From Candidatus Planktophila lacus (lineage in GTDB: Bacteria; Actinomycetota; Actinomycetes; Nanopelagicales; Nanopelagicaceae): a stretch of DNA of 64,000 nucleotides. A program made the position numbers and the translations under genes. Below the pieces are notes generated by a model. That model was not told where the DNA came from, did not search any database, and saw nothing but the letters and a program-made list of their open reading frames with translations. The stretch is from assembly GCF_002288325.1 (NCBI RefSeq), contig NZ_CP016780.1, positions 682,001 to 746,000 of the forward strand, in the 5' to 3' direction. Positions 27,845-56,999 of the stretch are shown here, piece after piece. The number at the start of each line of letters is the position of its first letter. The stretch's first letter is position 1.

Positions 27845-28093
27845 TTAAGCAGTTGGCTCGAGGTTTTCGATGGTCAAGAGACCTTCGTTGATTTCGCGTA
27901 GCGCGATTGAGAGAGGCTTCTCGTGAACGTGGGTCTCAACTAGCGGACCAACATATTCAAGTAAGCCTTCTCCGAGTTGTGAATAGTAAGCGTTGATCTG
28001 ACGTGCACGCTTTGCCGCATATAGAACGAGGCTGTACTTAGAACCGCTCTTCTCGAGAAGTTCGTCGATTGGTGGATTAGTGATGCCGTCCAT
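27845..28093 (-). CDS. rpoZ: RNA polymerase omega subunit
   Basis: The small assembly subunit of RNA polymerase, 82 residues. The omega signature is visible: [20 protein letters not shown] followed by [18 protein letters not shown]. Start ATG has a good Shine-Dalgarno (CTGGAGG) 7-8 bases upstream. The order gmk-rpoZ-coaBC-metK is standard for the phylum. The 74 bases between gmk and rpoZ hold a small palindrome and inverted GCTTCT/AGAAGC arms. Confidence 0.93.
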
Positions 28094-28167: not shown

Positions 28168-29046
28168 CTAGCGTTGAGTCACCAATGATATCAGGTGAGC
28201 GACGACCTCTTCTACTCGCTCATTTACCAAGGAAATATCGAAAAAACCAGCCTGGGCTAGCTCTTCTTGCGCCAACTCTAAACGCGCCGCCCGTCGCTCT
28301 GGTGAATCAGTACCGCGTCCTTCTAACCGTGAAACTAACTCTTCCCATGATGGCGGCTCGAGAAATACAAGTACCGCTTCAGGGGCACGTTCTTTAACTT
28401 GCTTGGCGCCAGCAATTTCAATTTCAAGAAGAACGCTCTTTCCATCGCGGAGTGCATCTTCAACCGGCTTGCGAGGAGTTCCGTAACGAGCGCCCGCAAA
28501 GTTTGCCCATTCTAAGAAGAGCGCACTTTTAACTGCGTTATCAAATTCTTCATCGGTGTAGAAGAAGTAGTCCACGCCATCTACTTCGTTGTGGCGAGCA
28601 GTTCTTGTAGTTGCGGAGATGCTAACCCAGAATTCTCCGGACTCTCGTAAAACCTTTGCGACAGTGCTCTTTCCGACTCCCCCAGGCCCAGAGAGAACCA
28701 GAAGTTTGCCGCGTTGTGCAGCTGCTACACGATCAGGAAATTCTTTCAATAAGTTCTCGCGCTGTGAAACTCCCAATCCTTGAATTCTTCTAGTTGGGGA
28801 AATATTCAACTTCTCTAGTATTGCTAGAGCGCGAACCTTGCCAACACCTGCGAAAGATTCGAGAAGTTCGGCTACACGCATCTTGGCGATCGCTTCATCA
28901 TTTACTGCAAGGGTCAGAATTGCAGAGAGAGAAAGTTCGCCTGCCTTTACTCGCGCTTTGATCGCCGCTCTCACCTGACGAGCCGCAGTCGATTTGGCCA
29001 GCGCCGCTGATCTCTGTGCGGGAGTTAACTGTGGAGGCGTTGGCAT
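28168..29046 (-). CDS. gmk: Fusion protein: mycobacterial-type integration host factor (mIHF) + guanylate kinase
   Basis: A 292-residue protein with two domains. Residues 1-103 align over their full length with actinobacterial m[22 protein letters not shown] at the start, the helix-two-turns-helix part [19 protein letters not shown] (66-84), and [18 protein letters not shown] at the end, where free mIHF normally stops. Residues from about 113 are guanylate kinase, with P-loop [10 protein letters not shown] (119-128), [13 protein letters not shown] for GMP binding and the lid region beyond. Gmk makes GDP from GMP; mIHF binds and bends DNA. In mycobacteria these are separate neighbouring genes. 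No stop or good ribosome site separates them here. ATG 29046 is chosen over 29082 because it removes the overlap with pyrF (10-base gap) and gives the mIHF N-terminus. Confidence 0.92.
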
Positions 29047-29056
29047 ATGTGAAAGT

Positions 29057-29761
29057 CTAGTTACTGAGAATTTCACTAGCAATCGCCGCGGCTTTACCGC
29101 GCAACGCCTGTGGACCTTGGCTCCAGGCTGAAGTTATTGGACGACCAATCACAACATAATTTGCACCTTGCGCAATAGCATCTGCCGGAGTCATTGTTCG
29201 CTTCTGATCGTCTGAGCCAACTTCGGTAAGTGGACGCACCCCAGGCGTAATAATTATTGGCTCTGTGCCCACTGCACTGCGAATCGCTGCTGTCTCAAGC
29301 GGTGAACAAACCAAAGACTTTGCTCCAGCTGACACTGCCATCTTTGCTAAGGCGACCGCGCTTTCTAAGGCCGGACTTGCAAAACCTACTTCGAAAAGAT
29401 CTTCTTCAGATAGAGAAGTCAAAATGGTTACTGCGGTAACGCTAACCTGCGGAACTGCAGCCGCTGCAGCTTTAACCATCTCGCGTCCACCGCTTGCATG
29501 GACCGTTAAAAACTTAGGCGATAAGTGAGCGATCGCCTTCGCTGCCCCTGCAACAGTGTGAGGAATATCGTGCAATTTGAGATCGAGAAAGATCTCGGCG
29601 CCAGTCTCTTCGATAATTCGCGCAACCCCAGAACTACCGAAGTTTAGATAGAACTCGAGCCCCAACTTATAGACCGATACCGATTCCTTAGTGTTATCGA
29701 TCCACGCTAGAGCAGTATCGAAATCAGAGGTATCAACCGCCAGAATTATCGGGGCTTTCAT
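29057..29761 (-). CDS. pyrF: Orotidine 5'-phosphate decarboxylase
   Basis: The last step of UMP synthesis. It has 234 residues and is the short type 1 form, unlike the longer mycobacterial type. The catalytic array is intact: Asp10 in AVDTSDFD, then FLDLKLHDIPHTV with Asp60, Lys62 and Asp65, and the phosphate motif IITPGVRP near residue 190. Its ATG overlaps the pyrD stop by 4 bases, and the mIHF-gmk gene starts 10 bases after its stop. Confidence 0.96.
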   Translation of the reverse strand: MKAPIILAVDTSDFDTALAWIDNTKESVSVYKLGLEFYLNFGSSGVARIIEETGAEIFLDLKLHDIPHTVAGAAKAIAHLSPKFLTVHASGGREMVKAAAAAVPQVSVTAVTILTSLSEEDLFEVGFASPALESAVALAKMAVSAGAKSLVCSPLETAAIRSAVGTEPIIITPGVRPLTEVGSDDQKRTMTPADAIAQGANYVVIGRPITSAWSQGPQALRGKAAAIASEILSN

Positions 29762-54845: not shown

Positions 54846-56999
54846 TTAGTTGCGATAGACGTCGTAGACGCCTTCAACGGCGCGTACTGCAGCTAAGACT
54901 GAGTCGAGATGCGTCGCATCTGCCATTTCAAAGGTGAACTTGCTGATCGCGGTTCGATCCTTTGAGGTATTCACTGCAGCGCTTAAAATATTTACATGCT
55001 GTTCAGATAGCGCTCTCGTTACATCTGCCAACAAACGTGATCGATCTAGCGCCTCTACTTGGATATTTACTAGGAATACGCTTCCGGCTCCATCGAGCCA
55101 GCGCACCTTTGCAATTCGTTCGCCTTGATTTAACTGCAAGTCAGCAGCGTTGATGCAATCATCGCGATGGACTGAGATGCCACTTCCTTTGGTGATAAAT
55201 CCGATAATTCCATCTCCAGGAACTGGCGTACAGCAGCGGGCTAGCTTCACTAGCACATCGCCCACGCCTTCAACTTCGATTGCGCTACTTGAACGTCTAA
55301 TTGAGTGGGATCCGGTTGGAATAACATCGATAGTTGGTTCAGGGTGCGAATCTTCCACGCCTAGCGAAACAACTAATTTTTCAATAATGGAAGCTGCAGA
55401 AACATGCCCATCTCCTACAGCGCTATAGAGCGCAGAGATATCGGGATAGCGCAGTTCGTGTGCCAGCTCCAGTAAAGAATGTCCTGCAAAGATTTTCTGA
55501 AGTGGTAGTCCTGCTTTACGCATTTGACGCGCAATAGATTCGCGCCCAGCATCAATCGCTTCCTCGCGACGCTCTTTGCTGAAGTGCGCTTTGATCTTCG
55601 ATCTGGCTCGAGGAGATTTAACAAAGTTAAGCCAATCGCGTGATGGCCCTGCGTTTTCGCTCTTATTGGTAACTATCTCGATCACATCACCATTAACTAA
55701 GCGGGTATCAAGTGGAACTAAGCGACCATTTACTTTTGCGCCAGCGCATTTGCTACCGACATCTGTATGCACTGAGTATGCGAAGTCGACAGGTGTAGAT
55801 CCACCAGGAAGAGCAATCACGCTCCCCTTTGGAGTAAATACGAAGACTTCGGGACTGCCTAAATCAAAACGGAGCGCTTCGAGGAATTCTGAAGGATCCT
55901 CAGTCTCTTTCTGCCACTCGTGCAACTGGCGTAGCCAAAGCATCTCTGGTGAGGAGTTCTTTGACTCATTGCCTTGCTTGTACTTCCAATGCGCTGCGAT
56001 ACCGAACTCAGCACGGGAATGCATCTCAAAAGTTCTAATCTGGATTTCTATCGCCTTGCCGTTTGGCCCAATCACCGTTGTATGCAATGACTGGTATAGA
56101 TTGAATTTTGGCATTGCGATGTAATCTTTAAATCGTCCTGGCACAGGCGACCAGCGAGCGTGAATCGAACCAAGAACTGCGTAGCAATCCTTGACGTCAT
56201 TTACCAAGACGCGAATACCGACTAAGTCATAGATATCGTTGAAATCGCGTCCTCGCACCACCATCTTCTGATAGACGCTGAAATAATGTTTTTTGCGCCC
56301 TGTAACTGTCGCAGTGATCGCATCTCGATCTAGATCACTTTGCACCGCATCAATTACCTCTTGTGACAGCGCATCGCGGGAAGGCGAACGCTCGGCAACT
56401 AACCGGGAAATCTCTTCAAACTTCTTAGGTTCCAGAACCTCGAAGGAGAGGTCTTCCAGCTCCCATTTAATTGCATTCATACCTAAGCGGTGCGCTAGAG
56501 GGGCATAAATATCTAAAGTTTCACGTGCTTTTCGCTCAGCGCTCTCAGTGCTAACAAACTTCCAAGTGCGCGCATTATGTAATCGATCTGCAAGTTTTAT
56601 CACCAGAACTCGAATGTCGCGCGACATGGCAACGACCATCTTGCGAACCGTCTCAGCCTCAGCGGTCGGACCGTAAGTTAATTTATCTAACTTGGTGACT
56701 CCATCAACTAAGTTAGCAATCTCGTCGCCGAAATCAGAACGTAATTGAGTGAGCGAATAAGGCGTATCTTCAACGGTGTCGTGCAGAAGGGAGGCGATTA
56801 TTGTTGTGTCATTTAAACCAAGTTCAGCCAGAATCTGCGAAACCGCGACGGGATGAGTTATGTACTCTTCACCGGATTTACGCATTTGCCCTACATGGGC
56901 CTGCTTTGCGATTTCAAAAGCGCGCTCAACTTCAGAGAGCCGACTTGTTGGGTGGCTCTCTTTAAGTGTTGCTAATAGTGGTGCAACTAGAGCGTTCAA
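54846..56999 (-). CDS. relA: Bifunctional (p)ppGpp synthetase/hydrolase Rel
   Basis: The stringent-response enzyme: makes and degrades (p)ppGpp. It has 717 residues from the TTG at 56999. Domains: HD hydrolase with His35, His49, His73 and Asp74 plus the Glu77-Asp78 pair; synthetase with YQSLHTTVIGPNGKAIEIQI; TGS (VFVFTPKGSVIALPGGST); a zinc-finger/helical part with CCTPVPGD; and a C-terminal ACT domain. Both active sites are intact, so it is a true bifunctional Rel. TTG 56999 is preferred because the frame upstream overlaps secF by over 80 bases and TAAGG sits 8 bases before it. It follows secF directly; apt, often between them, is elsewhere. Confidence 0.95.
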   Translation of the reverse strand: MNALVAPLLATLKESHPTSRLSEVERAFEIAKQAHVGQMRKSGEEYITHPVAVSQILAELGLNDTTIIASLLHDTVEDTPYSLTQLRSDFGDEIANLVDGVTKLDKLTYGPTAEAETVRKMVVAMSRDIRVLVIKLADRLHNARTWKFVSTESAERKARETLDIYAPLAHRLGMNAIKWELEDLSFEVLEPKKFEEISRLVAERSPSRDALSQEVIDAVQSDLDRDAITATVTGRKKHYFSVYQKMVVRGRDFNDIYDLVGIRVLVNDVKDCYAVLGSIHARWSPVPGRFKDYIAMPKFNLYQSLHTTVIGPNGKAIEIQIRTFEMHSRAEFGIAAHWKYKQGNESKNSSPEMLWLRQLHEWQKETEDPSEFLEALRFDLGSPEVFVFTPKGSVIALPGGSTPVDFAYSVHTDVGSKCAGAKVNGRLVPLDTRLVNGDVIEIVTNKSENAGPSRDWLNFVKSPRARSKIKAHFSKERREEAIDAGRESIARQMRKAGLPLQKIFAGHSLLELAHELRYPDISALYSAVGDGHVSAASIIEKLVVSLGVEDSHPEPTIDVIPTGSHSIRRSSSAIEVEGVGDVLVKLARCCTPVPGDGIIGFITKGSGISVHRDDCINAADLQLNQGERIAKVRWLDGAGSVFLVNIQVEALDRSRLLADVTRALSEQHVNILSAAVNTSKDRTAISKFTFEMADATHLDSVLAAVRAVEGVYDVYRN

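Follow-up and report, generated by a model that had tools for sequence, protein, structure and literature searches.

The guanylate kinase of Candidatus Planktophila lacus is encoded together with the nucleoid protein mIHF in one uninterrupted gene. In the window, as the whole analysed stretch of 64,000 nucleotides is called here, a single open frame of 292 codons on the minus strand encodes an mIHF domain followed by a guanylate kinase (Gmk) domain (Table 1). The N-terminal half is an mIHF domain and not a free-standing small mIHF, as there is no stop between the domains. The gene probably gives rise to one bifunctional polypeptide of 292 residues and 31.8 kDa (computed from the sequence), in which a working mIHF and a working guanylate kinase would be joined by a short linker through the loss of a stop codon.

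Table 1 Positions of the fused gene, its parts and its operon neighbours in the window. SD, Shine-Dalgarno sequence.
Feature	Position	Strand	Remarks
Fused mIHF-guanylate kinase gene	28168..29046	(-)	ATG 29046-29044, stop 28170-28168, 292 aa
mIHF domain, residues 1-103	28738..29046	(-)	NF041260, Pfam H2TH_5, PDB 6tob/4itq by sequence
Linker, residues 104-112, about 9 residues	28711..28737	(-)	Low-confidence joint in model
Guanylate kinase domain, residues 113-292	28171..28710	(-)	TIGR03263, Foldseek, invariant columns
TTG at residue 100, candidate internal start	28747..28749	(-)	Weak SD, -3.0 kcal/mol
pyrF	29057..29761	(-)	Operon neighbour; its end lies 10 bases upstream of the fused gene
rpoZ	27845..28093	(-)	Next gene downstream of the fused gene

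Domain structure of the fused protein

The NCBIfam model NF041260 (actino_IHF), which is of the 'equivalog_domain' type, matches residues 5–103 over model positions 3–101 of 102 with a score of 117.9 bits against a cut-off of 60, and the Pfam H2TH_5 match covers residues 33–103. The guanylate kinase model TIGR03263 matches residues 113–290 over model positions 1–179 of 180 with 207.7 bits against a cut-off of 160.45. With both domains above the curated cut-offs, the assignment made in a preliminary description of this DNA, a single frame with mIHF at residues 1–103 and Gmk from about residue 113, is borne out. The same description had read a linker of about ten residues in place of the mIHF stop; the linker is indeed present and comprises about nine.

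The mIHF domain is made up of an N-terminal helix and an H2TH core. The structures of mIHF (PDB accession number 6tob) and sIHF (4itq) align with it by sequence from residue 4 or 5 to residue 104, and Gmk structures align by sequence from about residue 109. The Gmk half contains the P-loop and the GMP-binding residues S144, R148, R151, Y160, E179 and Y188. These P-loop and GMP-site residues are invariant or nearly so among 48 fused proteins and line up with S. aureus Gmk. The mIHF half is strongly basic, with a pI of 10.9, whereas the Gmk half is acidic, with a pI of 5.0.

A structure model built using 48 fused relatives has a mean pLDDT of 93.6, with values over 90 in most blocks of the mIHF part; the only weak stretches are approximately residues 101–110 and the C-terminus. 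The pTM of 0.66 is what would be expected of two rigid domains that the model does not orient firmly relative to each other. The best Foldseek match of the Gmk part is M. tuberculosis Gmk (1s4q), with a TM-score of 0.88 on the target and 47% amino acid sequence identity.

Conservation and copy number

A 100% identical gene is present in an independent complete genome, that of Candidatus Planktophila lacus MMS-21-148 (NZ_CP016769.1), and the frame is uninterrupted in relatives at 60–97% identity. A sequencing error hiding a stop or frameshift near position 28740, named earlier as a way in which the fusion could prove false, is ruled out by these open identical and homologous genes. Chance as an explanation was rejected on the profile scores and the conservation.

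The genome (1.4 Mb, 99.97% complete) holds one mIHF match and one Gmk match, and a search of the whole of it for a second, free mIHF or Gmk found none; one HU-like gene is present. Thirteen mIHF residues that are conserved in 36 free mIHF proteins (R12, R23, R26, K30, M56, V58, G69, I82, R86, R87, G90, G92 and Q95) are conserved to about the same degree in 48 fused copies. Comparison of the window gene with six Planktophila relatives yielded, where computable, dN/dS values of ~ 0.01–0.15 for the mIHF part and 0.03–0.07 for the Gmk part, with dS near saturation for several of the pairs. As judged from these sequence comparisons, both halves are maintained under purifying selection.

Operon context

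The operon order is pyrR-pyrB-pyrC-carA-carB-pyrK-pyrD-pyrF-[mIHF-gmk]-rpoZ-coaBC-metK-priA, with the gene names other than mIHF and gmk assigned by reading of the proteins. The fused gene begins 10 bases past the pyrF stop without an SD (29044–29065, minus strand), which suggests that its translation is coupled to that of pyrF. The sole RelA/SpoT domain protein of the genome, a Rel-type protein with a frame of 748 codons, is encoded at ~ 55968–56300 (minus strand), ~ 27 kb from the fused gene.

Distribution and origins of the fusion

The order sample comprised 151 genomes, all of one family (f1), two of which gave no match. The two genes are fused in 127 of the 149 genomes with a match, a count that includes two contig-end fragments spanning the junction, and separate in 22, among which three in-frame but stopped cases were counted. 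All genomes in this sample that belong to the window's genus carry the fusion, and the separate genes occur in genera g13, g15, g16, g19, g21 and g23. Nearly all members of family f31 in the class sample carry the fusion. A Microbacterium protein (WP_223172673.1, 298 aa) with the same two domains is 76% identical to an f31 member, which identifies the family, by sequence, as Microbacteriaceae or something very near. Further fusions were found in genus g87 of family f29, in two f29 genomes of genus g100, the third sampled member of which has separate genes, and in one f33 genome. Outside the class Actinomycetes, no fusion was found among 150 genomes sampled from the phylum. A survey of actinobacterial Gmk proteins for an N-terminal mIHF, as had been proposed, thus locates it in most of family f1, in Microbacteriaceae and in three small lineages.

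Two metagenome-assembled genomes deposited as Bifidobacterium breve (L131 and L133) carry a Planktophila-type fused gene at ~ 80% identity and are mislabelled freshwater actinobacteria. A Microbacterium record labelled as a plasmid (L246; NZ_CP072877.1, 438220–442104) contains pyrF, gmk and rpoZ, with pyrF split into two annotated frames, and is probably a mislabelled chromosomal contig with a frameshift.

In the 150-genome phylum sample, mIHF and gmk lie next to each other, and in many cases they share one frame and are divided by a single stop, so that the loss of one stop codon suffices for fusion. The statement that the genes are separate and adjacent in mycobacteria agrees with this arrangement of separate neighbours elsewhere. 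Taken together, the order, class and phylum samples point to a pairing that is ancient and a fusion that is recent and repeated.

A tree was calculated from seven flanking proteins (carB, pyrK, pyrD, pyrF, rpoZ, coaBC and metK), with mIHF and Gmk left out. The genera with separate genes g16/g23 and g13/g21 are placed at the base of family f1 and the fused genera in its crown; g15 and g19, with separate genes, are nested inside the fused crown. The tree contains five state changes, three in the family, one in Microbacteriaceae and one in f29. The support of the deep crown is weak (52–83), and the tree therefore does not discriminate, within the family, between a single gain followed by reversals and multiple gains. 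When g100 and f33 are added, at least five origins in the class Actinomycetes are likely on these sequences.

Genome streamlining had been suggested as possibly the only cause of the fusion. This does not hold: the Microbacteriaceae that carry it have genomes of 2.8–4.3 Mb, which are not streamlined, and since the fusion occurs in them and in a few other lineages as well, streamlining alone is insufficient.

Formation and function of the fused protein

The fusion would have formed by loss of the stop codon that had divided two neighboring, co-oriented genes of the pyr-mihF-gmk-rpoZ-coaBC-metK operon. Guanylate kinase is an essential enzyme that makes GDP. Both domains have most likely retained their ancestral functions, mIHF that of binding and bending DNA non-specifically and Gmk that of converting GMP to GDP. 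As a consequence, the two halves would occur in a fixed 1:1 ratio and Gmk would reside on the nucleoid part of the time; the window's lineage is predicted to have neither a separate Gmk nor a separate mIHF. The tolerance of mIHF to fusion may derive from its binding DNA, as is thought, as a monomer and accepting C-terminal cargo. In M. smegmatis, mIHF tagged with EGFP, mNeonGreen or HaloTag replaces the essential native mIHF, and joining mIHF to Gmk should thus be physically easy; the binding of mIHF is reportedly transient and presumably that of a monomer (PMC10028186). However, recombinant mIHF was a homodimer in solution in an earlier study (PMC3724605). mIHF is essential in mycobacteria, and deletion of mihF in M. 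tuberculosis needed gmk and rpoZ in trans owing to polar effects (PMC6155035).

The adjacency of the genes and the repeated origin of the fusion fit a selected fusion and a tolerated one equally. There is about an even chance that the fusion has no regulatory meaning, having arisen harmlessly from stop loss within a tight operon and become fixed by drift. In-frame neighbours one stop apart are common, the fusion has several origins, and the linker sequence varies among the fused relatives; the approximately three state changes in the family fit either one gain with reversals in g15 and g19 or several gains. On the other hand, the fusion has been kept across whole families over long divergence, and the spacer length is conserved between genera. 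Fixation by drift is compatible with a bifunctional polypeptide formed by stop loss and differs from it only in the reason for fixation.

It is unlikely, though conceivable, that the two activities are functionally coupled, such that GDP synthesis, possibly inhibited by (p)ppGpp, takes place on the nucleoid, or that Gmk dimers turn the protein into a two-handed DNA bridge. The recurrence of the same pairing would agree with coupling, but operon adjacency alone predicts repeated fusion. The RelA/SpoT protein is encoded 27 kb away, and Gmk forms dimers, with oligomeric contacts determining its (p)ppGpp sensitivity, a property that differs between phyla (PMC6783271); M. tuberculosis Gmk, however, is reportedly regulated differently (PMC6892785). 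An mIHF that acts as a monomer (PMC10028186) would also agree with coupling, whereas the homodimer seen with recombinant protein (PMC3724605) and the unfixed domain orientation of the model (pTM of 0.66) speak against it. The (p)ppGpp-sensitive nucleotide step on the chromosome, which the preliminary description had put forward and which would require a sensitive Gmk, stays a guess because of this variation between phyla and the different behavior of the M. tuberculosis enzyme, and it is not readable from the window sequence.

Internal start sites before the Gmk domain

An internal start was sought in 40 fused genes of genera g11, g12, g14 and g17 (L090–L106 and L138–L164), with statistics that treat related genomes as independent. 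At position −10, ten codons before the first Gmk strand, ATG, GTG or TTG occurs in 29 of the 40 genes, whereas the amino acids and codon usage would predict 10.8 (p below 5e-5); no other position tested came near this excess. Eight of the other eleven genes have an ATG one codon later (−9). A start codon is thus found at −10 or −9 in 37 of the 40 genes and never at both (Fisher p 2e-6). The glutamate at −13 is encoded by GAG in 37 of 40 genes versus 53% elsewhere (p 8e-8), and this GAG completes an SD-like stretch. Pairing with the anti-SD goes beyond a synonymous-codon null with z of approximately −4 in g11 and g12 and −2.2 in g14; in g17 the start codon is present and no SD excess over the synonymous null was detected. 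These codon patterns indicate that free Gmk is probably made alongside the fusion in the four genera.

The same signal was searched for at the junction in Planktophila and g10 and was absent, as it is in Microbacteriaceae, and several relatives and several Microbacteriaceae have no start codon anywhere in the linker. Residues 104–112 of the window gene likewise contain no ATG, GTG or TTG codon, and near the junction there are only weak TTG codons, at residues 91 and 100, which most near relatives do not share. A strong SD accompanies 29% of gene starts in this genome versus 7% of internal ATGs. Since the genome uses SDs at its starts, the missing internal SD is informative, with the caveat that no SD precedes the start of the fused gene itself either. 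The window's clade and Microbacteriaceae therefore differ from the four genera in that they probably make only the fusion, as far as their junction sequences indicate. The objection that a second internal start could produce free Gmk thus probably applies to the sister genera but not to the window's clade.

It is improbable that the window gene also produces free Gmk from an internal start, as the sister genera probably do, with their strong start and SD signal in g11, g12 and g14 and the start codon alone in g17. An ATG is present at −11 in 33 of 74 Planktophila copies, about 45%, and the window has its TTG at residue 100. However, the SD before −11 in Planktophila does not exceed the synonymous null (z of +1.4) and the other positions are flat, the nearest relatives of the window (L023, L002, L003 and L025) have no start codon there, and the absence of an SD counts in a genome that uses it. 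Separate products could also come from initiation at the TTG at residue 100 or from proteolytic cleavage of the linker; this TTG, which has a weak SD and is present in the 97% relative but missing from most other near relatives, was judged not to be a functional internal start.

A single fused product is the preferred reading for the window. The series from separate genes through fusion with an internal start to fusion without one makes a clear case of operon neighbors merging. A more speculative extension, to which we give little credence, is that Gmk dimerization forms the two-handed bridge, that GMP, GDP or (p)ppGpp tunes nucleoid compaction, and that the sister genera balance this with free Gmk. 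If so, a single gene would supply those genera with nucleoid-bound and free Gmk in tunable proportions.

Comparison with known proteins

A literature search, which covered gene fusion more broadly, found no paper describing an mIHF-guanylate kinase fusion. The domain pairing itself is already in RefSeq as guanylate kinase; what is new is how far it extends, that it arose repeatedly and that an internal start is probable in the sister genera. Genomes annotated without mihF may hide the gene inside gmk.

The free mIHF of M. tuberculosis (Rv1388, 6tob) and sIHF (SCO1480, 4itq) share the same domain over their whole length, with the same conserved basic residues. They differ from the window protein in that they are free proteins of ~ 105 residues, with mihF followed by a separate gmk (PMC6155035). 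M. tuberculosis Gmk (Rv1389; 1s4q and 1znw) has the same fold as the Gmk part of the window protein, to which it is 47% identical, but is a free enzyme without a nucleoid-protein domain. The gene order around the fusion is the mihF-gmk-rpoZ-coaBC order of other actinobacteria.

The closest counterparts are Microbacteriaceae Gmk proteins, for example WP_223172673.1 (Microbacterium sp., NZ_CP072877.1), in which a single open reading frame encodes mIHF and then Gmk (NF041260 match at residues 11–103, above the cut-off; Gmk at residues 120–296). Their genes occupy the same place in the operon, after pyrF and before rpoZ, and are annotated in RefSeq only as 'guanylate kinase'. The Microbacteriaceae copies are ~ 45% identical to the window protein and would be of independent origin according to the flanking-gene tree. 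In freshwater actinobacteria as well as in Microbacteriaceae, a single molecule must serve as nucleoid protein and as essential nucleotide kinase, and the cultivable Microbacterium species make the question of an enzyme-carrying nucleoid protein directly testable.
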